Below are positions 13,291 through 60,351 of a stretch of 64,000 nt of DNA, piece by piece. Each line of letters opens with the position of its first letter. Position 1 is the first letter of the stretch. The position numbers and the translations under genes were made by a program. The notes below the pieces were generated by a model. It was not told the origin of the DNA and ran no database searches. It was given only the letters and a program-made list of their open reading frames with translations. This DNA comes from Sphingomonas sp. (GTDB taxonomy: Bacteria; Pseudomonadota; Alphaproteobacteria; Sphingomonadales; Sphingomonadaceae): positions 40,569 to 104,568 of the forward strand of contig JANXUU010000140.1 of the NCBI GenBank assembly GCA_025356055.1, written 5' to 3'.

Positions 13291-15009
13291 ATGGCGTCCC
13301 AACCCCGGCCCAAGGGCCTCAAATTGCTCCGCGTCGCGCTCGGCAACCGCAAGTCGGGAAGCATGCTCGGCTTCGGTTTTTCCTCGGGCCTGCCGTTCGC
13401 GCTTCTGATCGGCACGCTGAACGCCTGGCTCGGAGAGGCCAAGATCAACTTGGCGACAATTGGTGTGCTGTCGTGGATCGGGCTTACCTATTCGTTCAAA
13501 TTCCTGTGGTCGCCGTTGGTCGACCGGCTCGAGATTCCGCTCCTCAACCGCTTCGGCCGCCGCAAGAGCTGGATCATGCTGTGCCAGGCGGTGATGGTCG
13601 CCGCCTTTGTTGCACTCGCGCTGACCGACCCGGCGAAGAACATCGGCTGGTTTGCGATTTTTGCGGTTATTGCGAGCTTCGCGTCGGCGACGCAGGACGT
13701 CGCGGTCGATGCGTGGCGGATCGACGTCGCCGACGAGGATGCGCCGGTGGAATTGCTCTCGGCAATCTATCAGTTCGGCTATCGCACCGCCTCGATCGTG
13801 GGAGGTGCGTTCGCGCTGGTGCTTGCCGCGCGGATGAGCTGGAGCCTCGTCTATCTGCTGATGGCGGTGCTTATCGGCCTGATGATCGGAGTCGCGCTCG
13901 CCGCCCCCGACACCAGCCGCCCGCCCAAAGGCGCGATGAACGAAGCCCTGTCCCAAGCCGGCGAGATCGAGCCGCGCACGCGCCTGATCGCGCTCGCTAT
14001 CGTCACCACATGCTGGACGTGGGCGATCATCACCATCGCCCGCTTCATGAGCTCGATGCTGGTCCTTGCGCCCGGCACCAAGCCGCCATCTGTAGCCGAT
14101 TTCACCAAGCATGTCGGCCCATGGATCATCGTCGCTACCGTGTTCGTGCCGCTCGTCATCGCGGCGAGCGTGAACTGGCTGAAGGCCCACCACCGCAGTG
14201 TCCTGGCCCAGCCCGACACACACCCGGGATCCGGCCGCACTGCCGCCAATCACATGTACGGCGCGCTCGTCTCGCCGCTCGCCGAACTTTCGGAGAGGCT
14301 TGGCTGGGGGGTACTGATCGTGATCGGCTTCGTCCTGACCTACGCGCTATGCTATAATATCTGGTCGAGCTTCGCCTTCCCTTTCTACCTCGATTTCCTC
14401 CATTACTCGAAGGACGAAGTGGCGTTTGCGTCGAAGATATTCGGCATCTTCATGACGATGATCGGCATCAGCCTGGCGGGCTATTTGTTCACCCGCATTG
14501 GGCGGTTCCCGACGGTGCTGCTCGGCTCGATCCTGCCGCCGACGGGCAATCTGGTCTATGCCGACCTGGCAGAGGGCGGGCGGCATCTCGACATGGTCAG
14601 CCATGCATTGCACCTCAATGTGCTCGCGAGTTGGTTCGGGCAGGATGATCGGATGGTGCGCCTGCTGATGGCGATCAGTTACGAGAACATCTCGACTGGA
14701 ATCGCACTTACCGCGTTCGTCGCCTACCTTTCGTCGATCGTCTCGAAGAACTTTACCGCCGTGCAATATGCGCTGCTTTCCTCGCTCACCTTCCTTGTCG
14801 GATCGCTTGGCCGCGGAGTTGCAGGCGAGATGTTCGACACGCTCGGCTATGCGACGGTGTTCCGCTACACAGCAGCATTCGGGCTGTTGTCGGTATTGTT
14901 CGTGAGCCTCGAATGGATCCGGTCGAGCGCGATTGAGCGGCGCGTCAGTCGGGAAGCTCAAGATTTGCCGACAGCGCTTCCCCCGCAAGATACAGCGACC
15001 CCGCAATAA
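13291..15009 (+). CDS. AmpG-like MFS muropeptide permease
   Basis: A roughly 572-residue multi-pass transporter. The N-terminal MLGFGFSSGLPFALLIGTLNAWL and the TQDVAVDAWRID segment are AmpG hallmarks; AmpG imports anhydro-muropeptides for peptidoglycan recycling. I chose the ATG at 13291 because GGAGAG precedes it; an ATG at 13258 in the same frame lacks a ribosome-binding site. The 3' end overlaps the convergent folC gene by 65 bases, an unusually long overlap of two real genes. The protein is longer than E. coli AmpG because of an extended central loop and tail. Confidence 0.88.
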   Translation: MASQPRPKGLKLLRVALGNRKSGSMLGFGFSSGLPFALLIGTLNAWLGEAKINLATIGVLSWIGLTYSFKFLWSPLVDRLEIPLLNRFGRRKSWIMLCQAVMVAAFVALALTDPAKNIGWFAIFAVIASFASATQDVAVDAWRIDVADEDAPVELLSAIYQFGYRTASIVGGAFALVLAARMSWSLVYLLMAVLIGLMIGVALAAPDTSRPPKGAMNEALSQAGEIEPRTRLIALAIVTTCWTWAIITIARFMSSMLVLAPGTKPPSVADFTKHVGPWIIVATVFVPLVIAASVNWLKAHHRSVLAQPDTHPGSGRTAANHMYGALVSPLAELSERLGWGVLIVIGFVLTYALCYNIWSSFAFPFYLDFLHYSKDEVAFASKIFGIFMTMIGISLAGYLFTRIGRFPTVLLGSILPPTGNLVYADLAEGGRHLDMVSHALHLNVLASWFGQDDRMVRLLMAISYENISTGIALTAFVAYLSSIVSKNFTAVQYALLSSLTFLVGSLGRGVAGEMFDTLGYATVFRYTAAFGLLSVLFVSLEWIRSSAIERRVSREAQDLPTALPPQDTATPQ

Positions 15010-16159
15010 GGATCGGCGAAGATAGAAGGGCGAGGGCCTCGATCAACGTTGCTGCGGCCCGCCCGCTGAACTTCGCGGCGAGTGTGGCGGGATCGTGACT
15101 CGCGTGATCGAGCACGGGGACGAAGGTCAGGCTGAGCGCATAAGGGCGGAGCAGGGCAACAATCTCGTCGGCGTCCTTGTTCGCGAGCATCCCCAGCACG
15201 AGGTGGCGCGGATCGGTCGCAAGATGCGCCGCCAGCGCTCGCGCTGCATCGCCATTGTGCGCCCCGTCGACCATCACGTCGCGTCCGGCGGCGAGCGGGC
15301 CGGGGGCGAGCCGTTGCAGCCGTGCGGGCCACTTGGCGCCCGCAAGGCCATTTCGAAACTGGTCGAGGGTGACCGGCAGTCCTGCGGCCTTGAGCATCTG
15401 CCAAGCCAAGTTCGCATTGCGCCGCTGGTGCGCACCGGGGAGCGCCGGGCGGAGGCTCACATCAGGCTTCCAGTCGCGGCCTTCGAGGAGTAACGGCGTG
15501 CCGCGTCCGGCAGCCATCGTCTGGGTGGCGGCGAGTGCTTCGGGCGGCTGGGCGAGCGCGATCAGCGGGACGCCGGACTTGGCGATCCCGGCCTTCTCGC
15601 GCGCGATCTCGGCGAGCGTGTGGCCGAGATAATGCTGGTGATCGATCCCGATGCTGGCGATCCCGCATGCCGCCGGTCGCTCGACGACGTTGGTCGCGTC
15701 GAGCCGACCGCCGAGGCCGACCTCGAGGACGCAGACATCGGCGGGGATGCGCGCGTACACGAGCAGGGCAGCGGCGGTCGTGACCTCGAAGAAGCTTCCG
15801 CCAATGCCTTCGTTCACATCGAGCACTTCGGCGAGCAGTACCGCAAGCGCTTCGTCATCGATTAGCCGCCCCGCGATGCGGATCCGTTCATTGAAGCGCA
15901 CGAGGTGCGGGCTGGTGAAGACGTGTGCGCGGAGGCCCGCTGCCTCGATCCCGGCGCGCAAAAACGCGCAGGTCGAGCCCTTGCCGTTGGTGCCCGCGAC
16001 GTGGAGCACGGGTGGCAACCGGTCCTGCGGACGGTCAAGCCGATGGAGCAGTTCCAGCACGCGGTCGAGACCGAGGATATCGTCGGCGTAAATCGATGTC
16101 CCCAGCCGGTCGAGCTGGGCCTGCACTGCTGGCGAACCCGAACGGGCGAAATCAGCCAT
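14945..16159 (-). CDS. folC: bifunctional folylpolyglutamate synthase/dihydrofolate synthase
   Basis: Adds glutamate to dihydropteroate or folate (Mur-ligase-type ATP-dependent ligase). The 404-residue protein has the P-loop VAGTNGKGSTCAFL, the FTSPHLVRFNERI motif, VGLGGRLDATN and the ligase motif around IGIDHQHYLG. The start codon shares one base with the accD stop (TGATG), giving tight coupling. It is the last gene of lapA-pyrF-accD-folC. Confidence 0.95.
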   Translation of the reverse strand: MADFARSGSPAVQAQLDRLGTSIYADDILGLDRVLELLHRLDRPQDRLPPVLHVAGTNGKGSTCAFLRAGIEAAGLRAHVFTSPHLVRFNERIRIAGRLIDDEALAVLLAEVLDVNEGIGGSFFEVTTAAALLVYARIPADVCVLEVGLGGRLDATNVVERPAACGIASIGIDHQHYLGHTLAEIAREKAGIAKSGVPLIALAQPPEALAATQTMAAGRGTPLLLEGRDWKPDVSLRPALPGAHQRRNANLAWQMLKAAGLPVTLDQFRNGLAGAKWPARLQRLAPGPLAAGRDVMVDGAHNGDAARALAAHLATDPRHLVLGMLANKDADEIVALLRPYALSLTFVPVLDHASHDPATLAAKFSGRAAATLIEALALLSSPILIAGSLYLAGEALSANLELPD

Positions 16160-17013
16160 CAGGCGGCCGCCTTCTCCGGCGTGAGATAGGCGATCAGCGT
16201 GGCCAGCTTCGCCGTCAGCTCAGCCCGGTGGACGACCATGTCGATTATGCCATGCGCGAGCAGATATTCCGCGCGCTGAAAGCCCTCGGGCAATTTCTCG
16301 CGAATGGTCTGTTCGATCACCCGCTGTCCGGCAAACCCGATCAGCGCGCCCGGCTCGGCCAGCTGGATGTCGCCGAGCATCGCGTACGATGCAGTTACCC
16401 CGCCGGTCGTCGGGTCGGTCAGAACGACGATGTAGGGCAGCCCCGCTTCGCGCAATTCCGCCAGCGCGACGGTCGTTCGCGGCATCTGCATCAGCGAGAG
16501 AATCCCCTCTTGCATTCGCGCGCCCCCGGCTGCGGTAAACAGCACGTAGGGCAACTCTGCCTCGATCGCCGCCTTGATTCCGGCGAGGATCGCGGCACCA
16601 ACGGCGATGCCCATGGAACCGCCCATGAAGGCAAAATCCTGAACTCCGACGATCGCGCCGTGCCCGCCGATGGTGCCCTTGGCGGTCATCAGCGCATCGC
16701 GTTCACCAGTTGCGGTTCGCGCTGCTTTCAGCCGGTCGGGATAGCGCTTGGTATCCTTAAACTTGAGCGGGTCCTCACGGACTTCGGGGGTCGGGAGGAC
16801 GCGGTACTTCTCGCCGTCGAAGATCATGTCGAACCGCGCCTTGGGCCCGATGCGGTCATGGTGGTCGCAGCGCGGGCAGACGAAGAGGTTATCCTCCCAC
16901 TCCTTGGTAAAGACCATCGTCTGGCACTTGCCACAACGGTGCCACAGCGTGTCGCCGGTCTGGCGCTTTGGCAGGAAGGGGATGCCGTTTCGCACCCGGG
17001 TGAGCCAGCTCAT
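16159..17013 (-). CDS. accD: acetyl-CoA carboxylase carboxyltransferase subunit beta
   Basis: Beta subunit of the carboxyltransferase that makes malonyl-CoA for fatty acid synthesis. The 284-residue protein has an N-terminal four-cysteine zinc ribbon (CGKCQ ... CPRCDHHDR) and the crotonase-like core with [20 protein letters not shown] and [17 protein letters not shown]. Length is normal. In many alphaproteobacteria trpF-trpB-trpA directly precede accD; here only 57 bases separate it from pyrF (see findings). Confidence 0.97.
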
Positions 17014-17070
17014 GCGGTTCTCGTCTGTGTCATGGCTTGGCGACTATGCCGCCGGGCGAATTATGTCCAC

Positions 17071-17745
17071 TTACAGCGAGCCCTCTATCGCGCGCAGCGC
17101 TGCGACTGGGTCTTCAGCGCCGGTCACCGGGCGACCGATGACAAGGATTGAGGCGCCGGCGTCGAGCGCCGCGCGGGGGGTCATAACGCGCTTCTGGTCG
17201 GCGGTGGCGGTGTCTGCGGGGCGGATGCCGGGGACAACGAAAAAGCCCGTCGGCCATGCCTTGCGCACCGGGCCAACTTCCTGACCCGAGCAGACAATTC
17301 CGTCGAGGCCGGCCTCTCGCGCCAACGCGGCGAGGCGTTCGACCTGGGCTTGCGGCTGACCACCGACGCCGATCGAACGAAGGTCTTCGTCATCCAGGCT
17401 GGTCAGGACGGTCACCGCGACGACCTTCGTTCCCGCCGGCGCGGCGGCCTTGGCGTCTTCCATCATCGCGCGGCCCCCGGCCGCGTGGACGGTCAGGATC
17501 GCGGGTTCGAACGGACGCAGCGCCATGATCGCCTTGGCGACGGTGTTGGGGATGTCGTGGAGCTTGAGGTCGAGGAATATCGGAAGCCCGAGTTGGGCGA
17601 TGTCCATCACCCCGGCGCGGCCATTGCGGAGGAAGAATTCGAGCCCGAGCTTGATCCCCCCGACGTGTCGCTGGACCGTCTTCGCAAGCCGCTGCGCATC
17701 CTCAAGATCGGGGGTATCGATCGCGATGAATACCGGGCGGCTCAT
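17071..17745 (-). CDS. pyrF: orotidine-5'-phosphate decarboxylase
   Basis: Last step of UMP synthesis. The 224-residue TIM-barrel protein starts MSRPVFIAIDTPD and carries the catalytic DLKLHDIPNT motif (Lys and Asp tetrad) and the C-terminal phosphate-binding loop VIGRPVTGAEDP. The ATG overlaps the lapA stop as ATGA, so the two are translationally coupled. A longer in-frame extension upstream lies inside lapA and was rejected. Confidence 0.95.
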   Translation of the reverse strand: MSRPVFIAIDTPDLEDAQRLAKTVQRHVGGIKLGLEFFLRNGRAGVMDIAQLGLPIFLDLKLHDIPNTVAKAIMALRPFEPAILTVHAAGGRAMMEDAKAAAPAGTKVVAVTVLTSLDDEDLRSIGVGGQPQAQVERLAALAREAGLDGIVCSGQEVGPVRKAWPTGFFVVPGIRPADTATADQKRVMTPRAALDAGASILVIGRPVTGAEDPVAALRAIEGSL

Positions 17746-18017
17746 GGCTGCGTCTCGCCGGCGACCGGCGGAATAGGAGGCATCACTGGCGCCGCCGTCG
17801 TCCTGGCCGACTTGCGCAGCTGCCAGCAACGAAGCCGCCAGCGGATTGTCGTCGGCACATAACCAAACAGGAACGCGATCAGCACGAGCAGCGGAAGCTT
17901 GATATCGGCTTGGACATTGCCCCACAAATCGACCGTTACGTCGTTCCAGTTGCGCCCCATGAACAGCGCAGCCAGCAGCGCCAGGAAGAGCCAGAAGAGG
18001 AGGCGCAGGAACCGCAT
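17742..18017 (-). CDS. LapA-domain (DUF1049) inner-membrane protein
   Basis: A 91-residue membrane protein with two hydrophobic helices (LRLLFWLFLALLAALFM and LPLLVLIAFLFGYVPT) and a Pro-rich tail, typical of LapA/DUF1049 proteins. It heads the lapA-pyrF-accD-folC operon, a position it commonly holds ahead of pyrF/trpF in alphaproteobacteria. The start at MRFLRLL removes an unconserved upstream stretch. Confidence 0.87.
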   Translation of the reverse strand: MRFLRLLFWLFLALLAALFMGRNWNDVTVDLWGNVQADIKLPLLVLIAFLFGYVPTTIRWRLRCWQLRKSARTTAAPVMPPIPPVAGETQP

Positions 18018-52687: not shown

Positions 52688-52756
52688 ATGTCGATCAACC
52701 TCTCCAGCACCGTTACCTGGTGGCGCCCCTCACCCCGATGGCGGTCGCGCGGTTGA
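52688..52756 (+). CDS. trpL: trp operon leader peptide TrpL
   Basis: A 22-codon frame (MSINLSSTVTWWRPSP then RWRSRG, stop at 52754-52756) with tandem Trp codons at 52718-52723 and a third at 52739-52741. That is three Trp in 22 residues, far above chance. It lies 26 bases upstream of an intrinsic terminator and 80 bases before aroF, the geometry of ribosome-mediated attenuation. GGGGCGCC before the ATG is not a typical ribosome-binding site. The 9-base segment 52680-52688 is perfectly complementary to 52721-52729 over the second Trp codon, which would matter only if the transcript starts upstream of the ATG. Confidence 0.85.
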   Translation: MSINLSSTVTWWRPSPRWRSRG

Positions 52757-52782
52757 TTCTCGTCTTTTGACGATGTCCCCGA

Positions 52783-52809
52783 GGTCCGCGTTTCGCGGGC
52801 CTTTTTTTT
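52783..52809 (+). terminator. trp attenuator terminator
   Basis: GGTCCGCG (52783-52790) pairs with CGCGGGCC (52794-52801) across a TTT loop, followed by eight T (52802-52809). The 5' arm can alternatively pair with sequence at the end of trpL: CGCGG (52748-52752) with CCGCG (52786-52790) and CTCG (52759-52762) with CGAG (52780-52783), an antiterminator. A ribosome stalled at the Trp codons leaves 52748-52762 free; one that reaches the stop codon covers it. The mechanism is inferred, the elements are directly visible. Confidence 0.85.
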
Positions 52810-52835
52810 CGCCTTTTGCTGCCAGGAATTTTCAA

Positions 52836-53849
52836 ATGATCATCGTGATGAAGCCCAATGTCCCCGACGACGCCGTGACCGAGCTGCTCGAGCGGATCGA
52901 GGCAAAAGGCCTCAAGCCGCTCCACATGCCGGGGAGCGAGCGGGTCGTGCTGGGCGCGCTCGGCGACGAACGGGTGCTTGCCGACCTCGGGCTCGAGCAT
53001 CATCCCTATGTCGAATCGGTCAAGCCGATCCTGGCACCCTACAAGCTGGTCAGTCGCGAGCTCCACCCGCATGACACGATCGTCAATATCGGCGGCGTGT
53101 CGCTCGGCGGTAGCCGGTTCGCGCTGATCGCCGGGCCGTGCGCGGTCGAGAATGAGACCCAGCTGCTCGCCTCGGCCAAGGCGGCCAAGGCGGGAGGTGC
53201 GCGGATCCTTCGCGGCGGGGCATTCAAGCCGCGCACCTCGCCCTACTCGTTTCAGGGGCATGGCGGCGATGGGCTGATGCTGCTCGCCGAGGTCGGGCGC
53301 GAGGTCGGCATGCCGGTGGTCACCGAGGTGGTCGAGAGCGCCGACGTCGAGCTGGTCGCGACGCACGCCGACGCGCTTCAGGTTGGCGCTCGCAACATGC
53401 AGAACTTTGCGTTGTTGAAGGCCGTCGGTCAGGTGAGGAAGCCGGTGATCCTCAAGCGCGGAATGGCGGCGAAGGTCGAGGATTTGCTGCTCGCGGCGGA
53501 GTATATCTTGGCCGAGGGCAACGATCAGGTAGTGCTGTGCGAGCGCGGGATTCGGACTTTCGAAACGGCGACGCGCAACACGCTCGATCTGGCGGCGGTG
53601 CCGTTGCTCAAGATGCTGAGCCATCTGCCCGTCGTTGTCGACCCAAGCCACGGGACGGGGGTGCGCAGCCTGGTCACCCCGATGGCGCTGGCAGGGGCGG
53701 CTGCCGGTGCCGACGGGCTGATGGTCGAGGTGCATTATGACCCCTCGGTCGCGCTGTCGGACGGGGCGCAGTCGCTCTATCCGGCGCAGTTCGAGGCGCT
53801 CGGCAAGCAGTTGGCGCAATTGCTGCCGGTGGTCGGGCGCAGTTTGTGA
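52836..53849 (+). CDS. aroF: 3-deoxy-7-phosphoheptulonate synthase, class I-beta
   Basis: Second DAHP synthase of the window, 337 residues. The N-terminal ferredoxin-like domain ([20 protein letters not shown] ...) is fused to the TIM barrel, as in Thermotoga-type enzymes: [60 protein letters not shown]. The N-terminal domain is the allosteric part in known relatives. As first structural gene after the attenuator, its supply of precursor follows tryptophan demand. AGGA lies nine bases before the ATG; stop overlaps trpE as GTGA. Confidence 0.95.
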
Positions 53850-55402
53850 GCTTGCGCGGCGGCGAAGCGGCGACGCTGGTTCGGCGGCTCGCCGGGCCGG
53901 TGGTCGCGCGCGACCTGCACGCCGCGCTGGTTGCTGACGCGAAGGGCGTGCCACCGCTGTTCATCCAGCGGACGGGCGGGCCCGCGCTGATCGTCGAGGC
54001 GGCGGCGGTGAAGGCGGTGTGCCGGGGGCAAGAAGTTATGCTGACCGCGCTGACCGAGGGTGGGCGCGTGGCGCTGGCCGGGTTGGCAGGGGTGCTGGGC
54101 GAACACGTCGTCGAGCGGTCGGAGGTGCGGCTGGTGGCGCGCTTCTCCCGCTGCAATGCGCCCGAGGAGTTTGACCGCGCGCATTCGAAAACCCCGTTCG
54201 ACGTGCTTCGCGCCCTGGCGTTCGGGCACGAGCCAACCGACCGTGACGAGCCGTTCGCGCTCGTCGCTGCGGGCGTGATCGGGTTTGATCATGTCGATCT
54301 GTTCGAGGAACTGCCGCCGGCGCCAAAGGGGGATTTTCCGGACTTCGTGTTCTGGCTTGCGGAGAGCCTGGTCGTAGTCGAAGCGACGGGGGCGGGGCGG
54401 CTGATCTGCACCGCCTTCGGTAGCGAGGACGAGAGTATCGCGCACCGCCAACGCAGCCTGGCGCAGGAGCGGCTGTCGCTGTTGTCGGCGCGGGTCGAGT
54501 TCGCGCGCGTGATGGGGGCGCCGCAAATGTCGTCCGGAGGGTCGGGGGAGGCGGCGGTGACGACCGATCTCGATGACTCGGAGTATGCGGCCGTCGTCGC
54601 GCGGCTGAAGGAGAATATCGCTGCGGGTGACGTGTTCCAAGTCGTGCCGAGTCGGGCGTTCCGCACGCCCTGCGCCGATCCGACGGCGGCGTTTTCCCGG
54701 CTGGGGGCAGCGGACCCGTCGCGCTATCTGTTCTACACGCACGGCGAGTTCGGCACGTTGTTCGGGGCGTCGCCCGAAACCGCGGTAGCGGTGCGGCGCG
54801 AGGGCGACGAGCGGATTGTCGTCGTCACCCCAATCGCCGGAACCCGGCCGCGCGGGGGCACGATTGACGAGGACGACCGGATGGAGGCGGACCTGCGGCT
54901 CGATGTGAAGGAGGTTGCCGAGCATATGATGCTGGTCGACCTGGCGCGGAACGATGTCGCGCGGGTGGCCGAGCCGGGGACGCGGCGAGTGGCGAGCCTG
55001 CTGTCGGTCGAGCGGTTTGCGCGCGTTATGCACCTCGTCTCGCGGGTCGAGGGGCGGCTCGAGGCCGACCGCGATGCGATCGATGCGCTGGTCGCGTGCG
55101 TGACATGCGGGACGCTTAGCGGGGCGCCGAAATTGCGCGCGCTTGAGCTGATCCGTGAAGCCGAGCGGAGCGCGAGGGGTCCGTATGGCGGGGCGGTCGG
55201 GTGGATCGCGAGCGATGGCTCGATGGACACGGCGATCGTCATCAGGTCGGCATTGGTGCGCGAAGGGGTGGCCGAGGTGCGCGCCGGGGCGGGGGTGGTG
55301 CATGACAGCGACCCGGCATCGGAAGCGGCGGAAACGCGGCAAAAGGCGAGCGCGGTCCTTGCGGCAATCCGGGGTTCGAGCGTGACAAGGGTTGCGATAT
55401 GA
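53846..55402 (+). CDS. trpE: anthranilate synthase component I
   Basis: Converts chorismate and ammonia to anthranilate with TrpG. 518 residues; the C-terminal chorismate-binding domain has DVFQVVPSRAF, LFGASPETAVAV, TPIAGTRPRG, LVDLARNDVARVAEPGTRRV, GTLSGAPKLRALELI and YGGAVGWI, closest by eye to the enterobacterial type. At the N-terminus, where E. coli TrpE has the LLESADID tryptophan-binding motif, this protein reads PLFIQRTGGPAL (residues 37-48), so the feedback Ser is not obvious. GTG start inside the aroF stop. Confidence 0.94.
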   Translation: MSLRGGEAATLVRRLAGPVVARDLHAALVADAKGVPPLFIQRTGGPALIVEAAAVKAVCRGQEVMLTALTEGGRVALAGLAGVLGEHVVERSEVRLVARFSRCNAPEEFDRAHSKTPFDVLRALAFGHEPTDRDEPFALVAAGVIGFDHVDLFEELPPAPKGDFPDFVFWLAESLVVVEATGAGRLICTAFGSEDESIAHRQRSLAQERLSLLSARVEFARVMGAPQMSSGGSGEAAVTTDLDDSEYAAVVARLKENIAAGDVFQVVPSRAFRTPCADPTAAFSRLGAADPSRYLFYTHGEFGTLFGASPETAVAVRREGDERIVVVTPIAGTRPRGGTIDEDDRMEADLRLDVKEVAEHMMLVDLARNDVARVAEPGTRRVASLLSVERFARVMHLVSRVEGRLEADRDAIDALVACVTCGTLSGAPKLRALELIREAERSARGPYGGAVGWIASDGSMDTAIVIRSALVREGVAEVRAGAGVVHDSDPASEAAETRQKASAVLAAIRGSSVTRVAI

Positions 55403-56004
55403 AAATCTTGCTGATCGACAATCGGGACAGTTTCACTTTCAACTTGGCCGACAGCTGCGCGCGGTTGGGGGCCTATGTGAAGGTCGTTCGCAACTCGATT
55501 TCCGCCGAGGCCGCGCTGGCGCGGGCGGAGCGCGAGGGGATGATGATCGTCCTTTCGCCCGGCCCCGGCCACCCGCGCGACGCGGGCTGCTGCATGGAAT
55601 TGATTGCCTTGGCGAAAGGCCGCATCCCCCTGATCGGGATCTGCCTCGGCCACCAGGCGATGGTGCTCGAGGCGGGGGGCGAGGTCGTGCGGGCGCCTGA
55701 GATCGTCCACGGCAAGACCAGCATGATGCGGCATGATTCGACCGGGCCTTTCGACGGACTGCCCAATCCGCTGGCAATCGGGCGCTATCATTCGCTGTGC
55801 ACGCCGACGCCGCCCGCAAATTTCACCGTTCATGGCGAGATCGGCGGGATGGCGATGGCGATCAGCGACGGCGGCACCAAGCAGGTCGGCTTGCAATTCC
55901 ACCCCGAGTCGATCCTGACCCCGATGGGCGATCGACTGCTCGCCAACATCCTTGCCTGGGCCGGTGAGCGCCGCGACGCGCCTGCGATGGAGGGAGCGAT
56001 ATGA
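55399..56004 (+). CDS. trpG: anthranilate synthase component II (glutamine amidotransferase)
   Basis: Supplies ammonia to TrpE. The 201-residue protein has LLIDNRDSFTFNLAD, LSPGPGHPRDAG, nucleophile Cys in IGICLGHQAM, and His-Glu in LQFHPESILTPMG. It is separate, not fused to trpD as in E. coli. ATGA overlaps join it to trpE and trpD. Confidence 0.95.
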   Translation: MKILLIDNRDSFTFNLADSCARLGAYVKVVRNSISAEAALARAEREGMMIVLSPGPGHPRDAGCCMELIALAKGRIPLIGICLGHQAMVLEAGGEVVRAPEIVHGKTSMMRHDSTGPFDGLPNPLAIGRYHSLCTPTPPANFTVHGEIGGMAMAISDGGTKQVGLQFHPESILTPMGDRLLANILAWAGERRDAPAMEGAI

Positions 56005-57032
56005 CCGTCGTCGACCTGGGGCCGGTGGCCAACCCGCTGCCCAAATTGCTGTCGGGCGAAGACCTCCCGATCGAGGATTCGCGGGACTTGTTCGAACGGC
56101 TGGTGCTCGGCAAGCTTGAGCCGGCGGAGATCGCCGCTACCCTCGTGGCGCTCAGGATGAAGGGCGAGACGGTGGAGGAGATGATCGGCGCGGCGCGCGC
56201 GCTGAGCGAGGCGGCGCTGCCGTTCGCGCGGCCCGATTATCTTTATGCCGACTGCTGTGGGACGGGCGGTGACGGGTCGGGGATCATCAACGTCTCGACT
56301 GCGGCCGGGTTCGTCGCTGCGGCGTGCGGGCTGCCGGTAGCGAAGCACGGCAATCGCTCGGTCAGTTCGAAGTGCGGCTCGGCCGACGTGCTCGAAGCGC
56401 TTGGCGCGACGATCGAGGTTTCGCCCGAACTTGCCCGCGCCAACCTCGACGAGACGGGCTTTTGCTTCCTCTACGCGCCGATGTATCATCCGGGAATGAA
56501 GCACGCTGCGCTCGTTCGCCGCCAGTTGCAGGTGCGCACGGTGATGAATCTGCTCGGGCCATGCGTGAACCCGGCGCGGCCGCCCGTCCAGCTGCTCGGG
56601 GTCGCCGATCCGCGACTGCTGCGGCGCATCGCGCAGACGCTCGATGCGATGGGAGTGCGCGAGGCGCTGGTGGTGCATGGCGCAGGGCTCGACGAGGTCG
56701 CGCTTCACGCCGAGACTCGCGCGATTCGTCTGTCGAAGGGTGAGCTGACCGAAATCGAAATTACGCCGGAACAGGCCGGGTTGACCCGCGCGCCGCTCAA
56801 CACGGTCACGGGCGGCGATGCGACGGTCAACGCGGCGCGCCTGCGCGTGCTTCTGGGCGGGCGGGGCGAGCGGGCTGAGACGGATATCGTTGCGCTCAAC
56901 GCCGGGGCGCTGCTGATGACTGCCGGCAAGGCGGGTGACGTGCGCGACGGGACGGGGCAGGCACTCGAGGCGCTGCGTTCGGGCGCGGCAGGCCGAGTGC
57001 TTGACGCTTATGTGGAGGCCAGCCGTGGTTGA
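56001..57032 (+). CDS. trpD: anthranilate phosphoribosyltransferase
   Basis: Transfers phosphoribose from PRPP to anthranilate. The 343-residue protein has the PRPP-binding CCGTGGDGSGIINVST, VAKHGNRSVSSKCGSADVLEALG, the RQLQVRTVMNLLGPCVNPARP loop and VVHGAGLDE. Length is normal for an unfused TrpD. The next gene starts inside its 3' end. Confidence 0.95.
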   Translation: MTVVDLGPVANPLPKLLSGEDLPIEDSRDLFERLVLGKLEPAEIAATLVALRMKGETVEEMIGAARALSEAALPFARPDYLYADCCGTGGDGSGIINVSTAAGFVAAACGLPVAKHGNRSVSSKCGSADVLEALGATIEVSPELARANLDETGFCFLYAPMYHPGMKHAALVRRQLQVRTVMNLLGPCVNPARPPVQLLGVADPRLLRRIAQTLDAMGVREALVVHGAGLDEVALHAETRAIRLSKGELTEIEITPEQAGLTRAPLNTVTGGDATVNAARLRVLLGGRGERAETDIVALNAGALLMTAGKAGDVRDGTGQALEALRSGAAGRVLDAYVEASRG

Positions 57033-58386
57033 TGTGTTGTCGCAAATTGTCGCCGCAAAGCGGATCGACGTTGCCGCGCGGTTCGGCGATGTGAGCGCAG
57101 AGGCGATGCGGGAAGGGGTCGCGCCGACGACGCTCAGCCTCAAGACAGCGCTGACCCAGCCCGACGCGCGGTTCGTCATGGAGGTCAAGCGCGCCTCGCC
57201 TTCGGGCCACCGCAGCACGGTCGAACCAGCCGACGCGGCGCGCGCCTATGCCGGGGTCGCCGACGCGATCAGCGTGCTGACCGACGGGCCTTATTTCCAT
57301 GGCTCGCTGGATGATTTGCGCACCGTGCGCGCACTTTTCGACGGGCCGATCCTGGCGAAGGATTTCGTGGTTGATCCGCGCCAGTTGATCGAGGCGCGCG
57401 AGGCAGGGGCCGATGCCGCACTGGCGATGCTGTCGGTGCTGACCGACCAGGAAGTCGCAGCGGTCTATGCCGAGGCGCGGCTGCTTGGGATGGACGTCAT
57501 CACCGAGGTGCATGACGAAGCCGAGATGGCGCGCGCGGTGGCGCTCGGGGCCGAGGTCATCGGCATCAACAATCGCGACTTGAAAAGCCTGACGACCGAT
57601 CTTGCCGTGACCGAGCGGCTTGCCCCGCTGGCACCGGCTGGAACGCTACTGATCTCCGAATCGGGGATCGCAACGCGCGCCGATGTCGAGCGGCTGGGCC
57701 TCCTTGTCGACGCTTTCCTCGTCGGCTCGTCGCTGATGGCCGCGCCCGATGTGCGCGAGGCGGCGCGTGCGCTGGTGTTTGGACGGGTCAAGATCTGCGG
57801 GCTGGCCCGGGATGAGGATGTGACGCTCGCCGCGCGTCTCGGCGCGACCCACGCGGGGTTCATTTTTGTGCCCGGCACCTCGCGCGCGGTGACCCCGGCC
57901 GATGCGCGCCCGCTGGTCGCCCAAGCAATCGCCGCCGGGCTGTTCCCGGTGGGGGTGTTCCGCAACGCCGATCCCGAGGACGTTGCCGAGATCGCCGCCT
58001 CGCTCGGGCTGGCGGCGGTGCAGCTTCATGGCAATGCCAATTATGCGACAATTGCAGCGGTCAGGCGCGGCTTCGACGGCGAGGTGTGGGCGGTCAGCCG
58101 CGATGGCGCCGAGCCAGTGTGCGATGCCGCCGACCGGACGGTGTTCGACAGTGGTGATGGCGGGACGGGCACGACGTTCGACTGGACCCTGCTCGACGGT
58201 CGCCGCGACCTCGCAACCGGATTCCTCGCCGGTGGAATCACGCCCGCCAATGCCGCCGCCGCCGCCCGGGTCGGCGCTTACGGCATCGACGTCTCCTCGG
58301 GCGTGGAAGCCCAGCCTCGTTACAAGGACGCAACCAAAATGAATGCCCTGTTCACCGCCCTCCGCCCCGCCAGCAGGAACCGATAA
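57025..58386 (+). CDS. trpCF: TrpC-TrpF fusion: indole-3-glycerol-phosphate synthase/phosphoribosylanthranilate isomerase
   Basis: 453 residues from a GTG at 57025 preceded by GGAGG. The TrpC half (about 1-250) has [49 protein letters not shown] and [12 protein letters not shown]. The TrpF half (about 253-453) has [51 protein letters not shown] and [16 protein letters not shown]. The fusion and many sequence blocks match enterobacterial TrpCF; alphaproteobacteria normally encode trpC and trpF separately at different loci. Confidence 0.95.
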
Positions 58387-58387
58387 G

Positions 58388-59551
58388 ATGCGCCAGTCGG
58401 GTCGTTTCGGTAAATTCGGCGGCGCCTTCGTGCCCGAGATATTGGTCCCCGCGCTCGAGCAGCTCGAGGCCGCGTTTCTCGATGCGCAGGGTGATGCCGG
58501 GTTCAATGCGGAGCTTCAAAACCTCCTCACCACCTATGCCGGGCGGCCGACGCCGCTGACCAAATGCCGCAACCTTGGGTCGCAACGCACGCGCATTTAC
58601 CTCAAGCGCGAGGATCTGCTCCACGGCGGGGCGCACAAGACCAACCAGGTGCTGGCGCAGGGACTGCTTGCGAAACGCATGGGCAAGACCCGGCTGATCG
58701 CCGAAACCGGGGCCGGGCAACACGGCGTCGCGACCGCGCTGGCGGGGGCGCTGTTCGGGATGGAGACCAAAATCTACATGGGCGCGCACGATGTCGCGCG
58801 GCAGTCGCTCAACGTGTTCCGGATGGAGCTGATGGGGGCCGAGGTGATCCCGGTGACGTCGGGCAGCCAGACATTGAAGGACGCGGTCAACGAGGCACTG
58901 CGCGATTGGACCGCTAGCTTTGCCGACACCCATTACATCCTCGGCACGGTAGCGGGGCCGCACCCCTTCCCGCTGATGGTGCGCGAGTTTCAGCGCGTCA
59001 TGGGCAAGGAAGCGCGCGAGCAGATCCTCGAGGTCGAGGGCCGACTGCCGGATGCGGTGATCGCCTGCGTCGGTGGCGGGTCGAACGCGATCGGCATCTT
59101 CACCGATTTCGTCGGCGACGAAGGGGTCGAGCTGATCGGGGTCGAACCCGCTGGCCGTGGGCTCGATGGCAGCGAGCATGGCGCGACGATTTTGCGCGGG
59201 TCGCCGGGGATTTTGCACGGCGCCTCGACGCTGCTGCTTCAGGATAGCGACGGGCAGGTGACCGAGAGCTGGTCGATTTCGGCGGGACTGGACTACCCGG
59301 GTGTCGGGCCCGAACATGCGCATCTGAAGGACATTGGCCGGGCGCGCTATGTCGGGTGCGAGGATCAGGATGCGCTCGACGCGTTCGTGCTGCTCGCGCG
59401 AAAGGAGGGGATCGTGTGTGCGTTCGAGAGTGCGCATGCGCTGAGCTACGCGCTGAAACTGGCTGAAGCGGATGAGGACAAGATCCTGCTGATCAACCTG
59501 TCGGGGCGGGGCGACAAGGACATGCTCCAGGCGCGGGAGTTGCTGAAGTGA
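58388..59551 (+). CDS. trpB: tryptophan synthase beta chain
   Basis: PLP enzyme joining indole and serine. The 387-residue protein has the PLP lysine in [69 protein letters not shown] and NLSGRGDKD. The [11 protein letters not shown] form is the enterobacterial version; alphaproteobacterial TrpB typically reads LNHTGAHKVNN. AGGA lies ten bases before the ATG. Confidence 0.96.
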
Positions 59552-60351
59552 GCCGCCCAATGACCCGCTACTCCGAAATGTTTCAGCGGCTGGCGCAGCG
59601 CAATGAGGCCGCGTTCGGGGCGTTCCTGATGCTCGGCGATCCCGACGCGCAAACGAGCGCCGATCACCTCGACGCCTGCGCGCGCGGCGGGGCGGACATG
59701 ATCGAGGTCGGCATCCCGTTCAGCGACCCGATTGCCGATGGGCCGGTGATCCAGGCGGCGTCGGTGCGAGCCTTGGCGAATGGCGCGAAGGTCAATGATG
59801 CGTTCGCTCGGATCGCCGAGTTGCGGGCGAAGCATCCGGCGATTCCGATCGGGATTCTGACCTATGCGAACTTGCTGATGGCGCGCGGCGAGGCCCGGTT
59901 CATGGCCGATGCGAAGGCGGCGGGGACGGACTCGATCCTCATCGCCGACGTGCCGAGCCTCGAGGCGGAGCCTTATGCCAAGTGGGCGAAAGAGGCCGGT
60001 CTCGACATCGTGATGATCGCCGCGACCAACACCGCGCCCGACAAGCTGGCGATGATCGCGCGGCTGTCGTCGGGCTACACCTACTGCGTCGCGCGCGCCG
60101 GGGTGACGGGGGTGCGGGACGCCCTCGAACTCGACCATGGCGCGTTGTTCGCCGGGCTGGCTGCGGCGGGTGCGCCGCCGCCAGTGCTCGGTTTCGGTAT
60201 CTCGACCCCCGATCATGTGCGGGCGGCGGTGGCGTCGGGGGCGGGCGGGGTGATCAGCGGCTCGGCGATCGTCAAGCTTGTGACCGAGGAGAACTCGACC
60301 GCGAAGATCGAGGCGTTCGTCCGCGAAATGAAGGCGGCCACGCCAAGGTAG
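59548..60351 (+). CDS. trpA: tryptophan synthase alpha chain
   Basis: Cleaves indole-3-glycerol phosphate and channels indole to TrpB. The 267-residue TIM barrel has catalytic Glu in [19 protein letters not shown], Asp in [25 protein letters not shown] and [11 protein letters not shown]. The GTG start overlaps the trpB stop; an ATG four codons later is an alternative. Last gene of the operon; an inverted repeat follows directly and may terminate it. Confidence 0.95.

Follow-up and report, generated by a model that had tools for sequence, protein, structure and literature searches.

Xie and colleagues reportedly described, in 2003, the transfer of a whole-pathway trp operon into Corynebacterium/Actinomyces and into Helicobacter. 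The operons of these organisms, of the fused-TrpCF or an allied type, fall within the same clade of our concatenated trp tree as the operon analyzed here, and in each case a complete pathway operon of this kind lies in an unrelated lineage. In contrast to the Corynebacterium and Helicobacter transfers, the recipient here is alphaproteobacterial, with its native split-operon site readable as a scar, and the operon carries a leader attenuator and a DAHP synthase and appears to have been split and eroded later within one genus. The evolution of the trp genes at large is a mix of vertical descent and lateral transfer (PMC2395257). The Pelagibacter system (PMC2395257) agrees in its flanking genes and their order with the site considered below, which however has no trpF, trpB or trpA. 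On the side of regulation, the closest described systems are the E. coli trp attenuator (Rfam RF00513), in which a Trp-rich leader peptide and then a terminator likewise precede the first gene, and trpL of Sinorhizobium meliloti, an attenuator that governs only trpE(G) (PMC7298713).

We shall call the whole 64,000-nucleotide stretch of DNA that was analyzed the window, its genus g1, the sister genus g45, its family f1, and the other families of the order f2-f8. On the minus strand of the window there is an intact run of a lapA-like gene (an open reading frame at about 17742..18017 beside pyrF, its name taken from the first reading), pyrF (17071..17745, over the NCBIfam cut-offs of PRK00230 and TIGR01740), accD (16159..17013, over that of TIGR00515) and folC (14945..16159, an open reading frame with syntenic homologues in relatives), just as the preliminary description had it. 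The stop codon of pyrF is separated from the start of accD by 57 non-coding bp (17014..17070, minus strand), exactly the count given there, and this junction occupies the position where relatives have trpF-trpB-trpA. The split arrangement, with trpF-trpB-trpA directly 5' of accD and folC, is thus not what the window holds. No remnant of trpF or trpA had been recognized in the gap. A tblastn search agrees, since at this junction and at those of the relatives it finds no recognizable piece of trpF, trpB or trpA, the best matches having E values of 0.026 or worse, which is chance level.

That trpFBA usually sits between pyrF and accD in sphingomonads had been stated beforehand, and comparison of the site across the Sphingomonadales supports this. 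TrpA and AccD were searched in one set of 61 genomes. In all 32 other genera of f1, each represented by one genome, trpA lies directly 5' of accD with folC next, and in 31 of these trpF and trpB are also found within the stretch read. In families f3-f8 trpA immediately precedes accD in all the genomes in which both genes were placed. This adjacency occurs in none of the 33 relatives from g1 in which both genes were located. The distance from pyrF to accD is 2636-3348 bp in those native genomes where pyrF is also in view, and -4 to 68 bp in the 28 genomes of g1 that were measured. In g45 accD has neither pyrF nor trpA nearby. Because trpF-trpB-trpA 5' of accD is otherwise near-universal across the order, the gap in the window is not a matter of chance. 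At the native site of one genome (G041:C1:463373-466047) trpF, trpB and trpA each match in two pieces, either from possible decay or from sequencing error, and in another (L179, G178) a partial second trpA with 78 positions matched adjoins the native trpA.

A complete trp operon had been noted some 36 kb away, and it does lie on this contig, on the plus strand, spanning 52688-60351 including its leader, in the order DAHPS-trpE-G-D-(CF)-B-A. It begins with a DAHP synthase of the aroF type (52836..53849, over the cut-offs of TIGR01361 and PRK08673), followed by trpE, encoding anthranilate synthase I with its PIAGT motif (53846..55402, PRK13564), trpG (55399..56004, TIGR00566), trpD (56001..57032, TIGR01245), a trpCF fusion (57010..58386), trpB (58343..59551, TIGR00263) and trpA (59548..60351, TIGR00262), all of them also over cut-off. 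The fusion exceeds the cut-off of the bifunctional TrpC/TrpF family PRK09427 and gives single full-length matches, its best PDB match being the two-domain 1pii. With the order trpE-G-D-CF-B-A, this is an operon of the fused-trpCF whole-pathway type. The open reading frame of the DAHP synthase is listed from a TTG at 52767 and then spans the attenuator terminator, yet the profile begins at residue 24 of this longer frame, and the true start is likely the ATG at 52836. Automatic annotation from the upstream TTG (52767-52835) could hide the leader region.

The genome (97.4% complete, in 157 contigs) contains a single TrpA, a single TrpB and a single TrpF, all within the operon. A second native set, for which the rest of the genome was searched as had been suggested, is therefore absent from the assembly. 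Both GC and GC3 of the operon are host-like, so composition gives no separate support for a foreign origin, and any acquisition would on this composition be old or ameliorated.

Within the order, the full-length TrpCF fusion is confined to g1 and g45 together with two f2 genera (g2 and g18), and a sample of 385 genomes from across the class contains no further match at E <= 1e-60. In the sample of the phylum it is present in 54 other genomes. The carriers among the matches listed are of the gammaproteobacterial type, with Ferrimonas, Vibrio, Enterobacter, Pseudoalteromonas and others, and also include Corynebacterium, Actinomyces and Helicobacter. The identical order DAHPS-E-G-D-CF-B-A occurs in some genomes of gamma type (L215, L231, L260, L284 and L302), and among the matches listed the DAHPS-first order is common to Ferrimonas, Salinivibrio, Thalassotalea and two more genomes.

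In the tree of TrpB, g1 and g45 form one group (support 99) that joins the gammaproteobacterial sequences and the acquired ones of f2 (100), with the native sequences standing apart (100). In the trees of TrpA, TrpF, TrpC, TrpD, TrpE and TrpG, g1 again falls outside the native genes of the order. When the trp genes are concatenated, g1 and g45 group with the gammaproteobacterial fused-trpCF operons. Forcing them together with the native genes of the family is rejected (AU p 5.5e-50), as is forcing them together with all the native genes of the order (p 0.0002). A tree of the resident genes accD, folC and pyrF places g1 and g45 within the family, as sister to 27 native genera (support 100), while another five native genera branch outside them. 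It is this conflict, with the trp trees placing g1 and g45 outside the native genes and the neighboring genes keeping them inside the family, that forms the core of the argument for replacement.

These observations lead us to propose a xenologous replacement, in which an ancestor of g1 and g45 gained a complete gamma-type operon with fused trpCF and the native trpFBA was deleted. We put the probability of this reading at roughly 0.93. The event would date to the common ancestor of g1 and g45, and would thus be older than the genome of the window. That ancestor would have acquired the leader attenuator, the DAHP synthase and trpE-G-D-(CF)-B-A, and clean deletion of trpF-trpB-trpA would have brought pyrF to within some tens of bases of accD-folC. 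The functions of trpE, G, D and C in the window genome would also be supplied by the new operon. At the level of sequence we see the scar, the synteny of relatives, the single copies of trpF, trpB and trpA, the tree conflict, the leader peptide and the terminator directly. What we infer is that the operon came from a gammaproteobacterium or from something closely related to that lineage, and that takeover preceded loss. The donor lineage is only approximate, because in the concatenated tree the operon of g1 branches beside the sampled gammaproteobacteria and not inside them; it groups with their clade without nesting in any named donor group. Its sister there is the contig L280 (support 93). 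This 12.7-kb contig, from the metagenome-assembled genome DBS2-1.bin69, holds a full DAHPS-E-G-D-CF-B-A operon with a WW leader. In several relatives tRNA-Gly genes are found close to the acquired operon, by trpA in L196, L201, L203 and L209 and upstream of trpD in L204 and L213, and might mark integration spots.

The operon of the window is preceded by a short reading frame for a Trp leader peptide, MSINLSSTVTWWRPSPRWRSRG (52688..52756, plus strand), that has a Trp-Trp pair and a third Trp codon. Between this and the DAHP synthase lies a terminator hairpin of 10 pairs, GGTCCGCG-TTT-CGCGGGCC, followed by T8 (from 52781 or 52783 to 52809, plus strand). Consecutive Trp codons in a leader and then an intrinsic terminator are the hallmarks in sequence of a Trp attenuator. 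The Rfam family Trp_leader (RF00513) matches over its full length at 52712..52808 on the plus strand, at 25.3 bits (E 0.0049) and so below the gathering score of 41; two relatives also match over the full length at 36.0 and 29.9 bits, again below that score, and five native loci give no match.

In g1 and its close relatives both leader and terminator are present in 27 of 30 modules, 10 of the 11 with DAHPS and 17 of the 19 trpD modules that stand separately. Upstream of native genes the combination was found before none of 15 trpE and none of 19 trpG, and in the unsplit operons it occurs upstream of trpD in none of six. It is present in both acquired blocks of f2 and in many gammaproteobacterial operons. 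Occurring with the acquired and gammaproteobacterial operons and at no native trpE or trpG, the switch appears to have traveled with the operon, and in relatives in which the operon is split each of the two parts has one. We predict that the operon of the window is under ribosome-mediated attenuation. At low Trp the ribosome would stall at the Trp codons of the leader and the operon would be read; with ample Trp the terminator 5' of the first gene would form. In contrast to the E. coli attenuator, the leader in g1 precedes not trpE but the DAHP synthase, or trpD in relatives where the operon is split. With trpL-trpE(G) of Sinorhizobium meliloti it has in common a Trp leader peptide attenuation, here predicted, in an alphaproteobacterium, but in g1 the leader heads the whole acquired operon.

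The operon has not been kept whole throughout the genus. Of 21 operon-bearing genomes of g1 examined, 10 have trpE, six within the operon and four in a separate DAHPS-trpE-trpG module. The other 11 give either no TrpE match or a match that covers half the length at about 33-39% identity, and those of the partial matches that were read in the coding frame are PabB-PabC fusions, with a PMKGT motif and a lyase domain. The genomes that have no detectable TrpE and keep an attenuated trpD-CF-B-A are G206, G140, G150, G179, G018, G212, G231, G024, G023, G029 and G022 (among L195-L214), several of them single contigs. In one (L202, G018) a terminator of the DAHPS type and a Trp-rich reading frame lie directly 5' of trpD, resembling what an in-place deletion of DAHPS-E-G from an unsplit operon would leave. 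A tentative account, to which we give slightly less than even odds, is that the operon behaves as a detachable cassette: it would have been split into two attenuated modules, and about half of the genus would have lost DAHPS-trpE-G and kept trpD-CF-B-A, which would need external anthranilate.

Comparable arrangements are found in f2. Two of its genomes, G055 and G037, have gaps between pyrF and accD of 54 and 88 bp, no trpFBA before accD, and a fused-trpCF block with a Trp leader elsewhere (L190/L191 and L192/L193, respectively). Three others (G050, G060 and G069) retain the native trpFBA. A further genome, G044, also has the scar, of 107 bp, but no trp gene could be convincingly identified in it, and therefore a scar alone does not prove takeover. 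Holding the acquired operons of g1 and f2 together in the concatenated tree is not rejected (p 0.55), and one shared acquisition or several may lie behind them.

The most serious alternative is a variant of replacement that differs only in the order of events, in which the ancestor first lost the pathway, lived as a Trp auxotroph and regained it later through the operon. Genomes lacking the pathway do occur, and just in the lineages concerned: G013 and G202 belong to g1, G209 to g45 and G044 to f2. All four are near-complete and have no trpC or trpF and no convincing trpA, and the three that were measured (G013, G202 and G044) show the scar between pyrF and accD as well. However, in the tree of accD, folC and pyrF the Trp-less genomes of g1 nest among operon-bearing ones (L033 and L362 beside L363 and L360), and so seem to have lost the acquired operon later and not to be survivors of an auxotrophic ancestor. 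These later losses weakly favor takeover before loss for the original event as well, and we consider the reverse order less likely. None of the genomes examined combined the native trpFBA with the new operon, so that takeover before loss was not observed directly. Of the earlier proposal that the junction is a scar from loss of trpFBA after an operon took over, the replacement is borne out by synteny and trees, and the sequence of takeover and then loss is plausible.

Much less probable is a relocation, in which the native trpFBA moved beside trpEGDC and became fused, nothing being of foreign origin. The gathering of seven trp functions in one operon with host-like GC3 would suit this, but every trp gene shows the tree conflict, vertical descent being rejected as above at p 5.5e-50, and TrpB of the window is on average 57% identical to the native TrpB of the family and 65% to that of gammaproteobacteria. 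Short of serious error in the trees, relocation is thereby refuted. A site in this lineage that never held trpFBA is just as improbable. Every member of the genus is indeed without trpFBA there, but the genes are present in other families and in genera on both sides of g1 and g45 in the resident-gene tree, and the synteny together with this tree leads us to reject it. Mapping the presence of trpFBA against that of the trpCF operon, as had been proposed, gives the same answer: g1 has the fused operon instead, with trp genes that by the trees are not sphingomonad-derived. The case against a scar had been framed as close relatives that lack trpFBA and carry an alpha-type TrpB elsewhere; of this the first half applies, since members of the genus are without trpFBA, but the TrpB that they carry belongs with the gammaproteobacterial and not the alpha type. 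Least credible of all is an artefact of assembly or binning, for although the draft genome is in 157 contigs, a single contig holds both scar and operon, and relatives assembled in 1-3 contigs are alike.

In a literature search with most subscription papers outside its scope, no account of trp operon replacement in sphingomonads turned up. The replacement proposed here would extend a known kind of event to a new bacterial group, a genus of sphingomonads. It would be a case of a core biosynthetic pathway swapped for a foreign operon that is well sampled, with the old site still legible and many recipient genomes, and the genera g2 and g18 of f2 provide parallels in the same order. What is new is the attenuator on the acquired operon, absent before the native sphingomonad trpE and trpG; this switch, the split into two modules and the loss of anthranilate synthase are the most interesting aspects. 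The case allows tests of whether regulation travels with genes, of whether loss comes before or after acquisition, and of whether a pathway held in a single operon is more easily lost afterwards. If the account of a detachable cassette is true, species keeping only trpD-CF-B-A would make tryptophan solely from outside anthranilate, and for the many members of the genus in which anthranilate synthase is missing, a testable dependence on cross-feeding is predicted.
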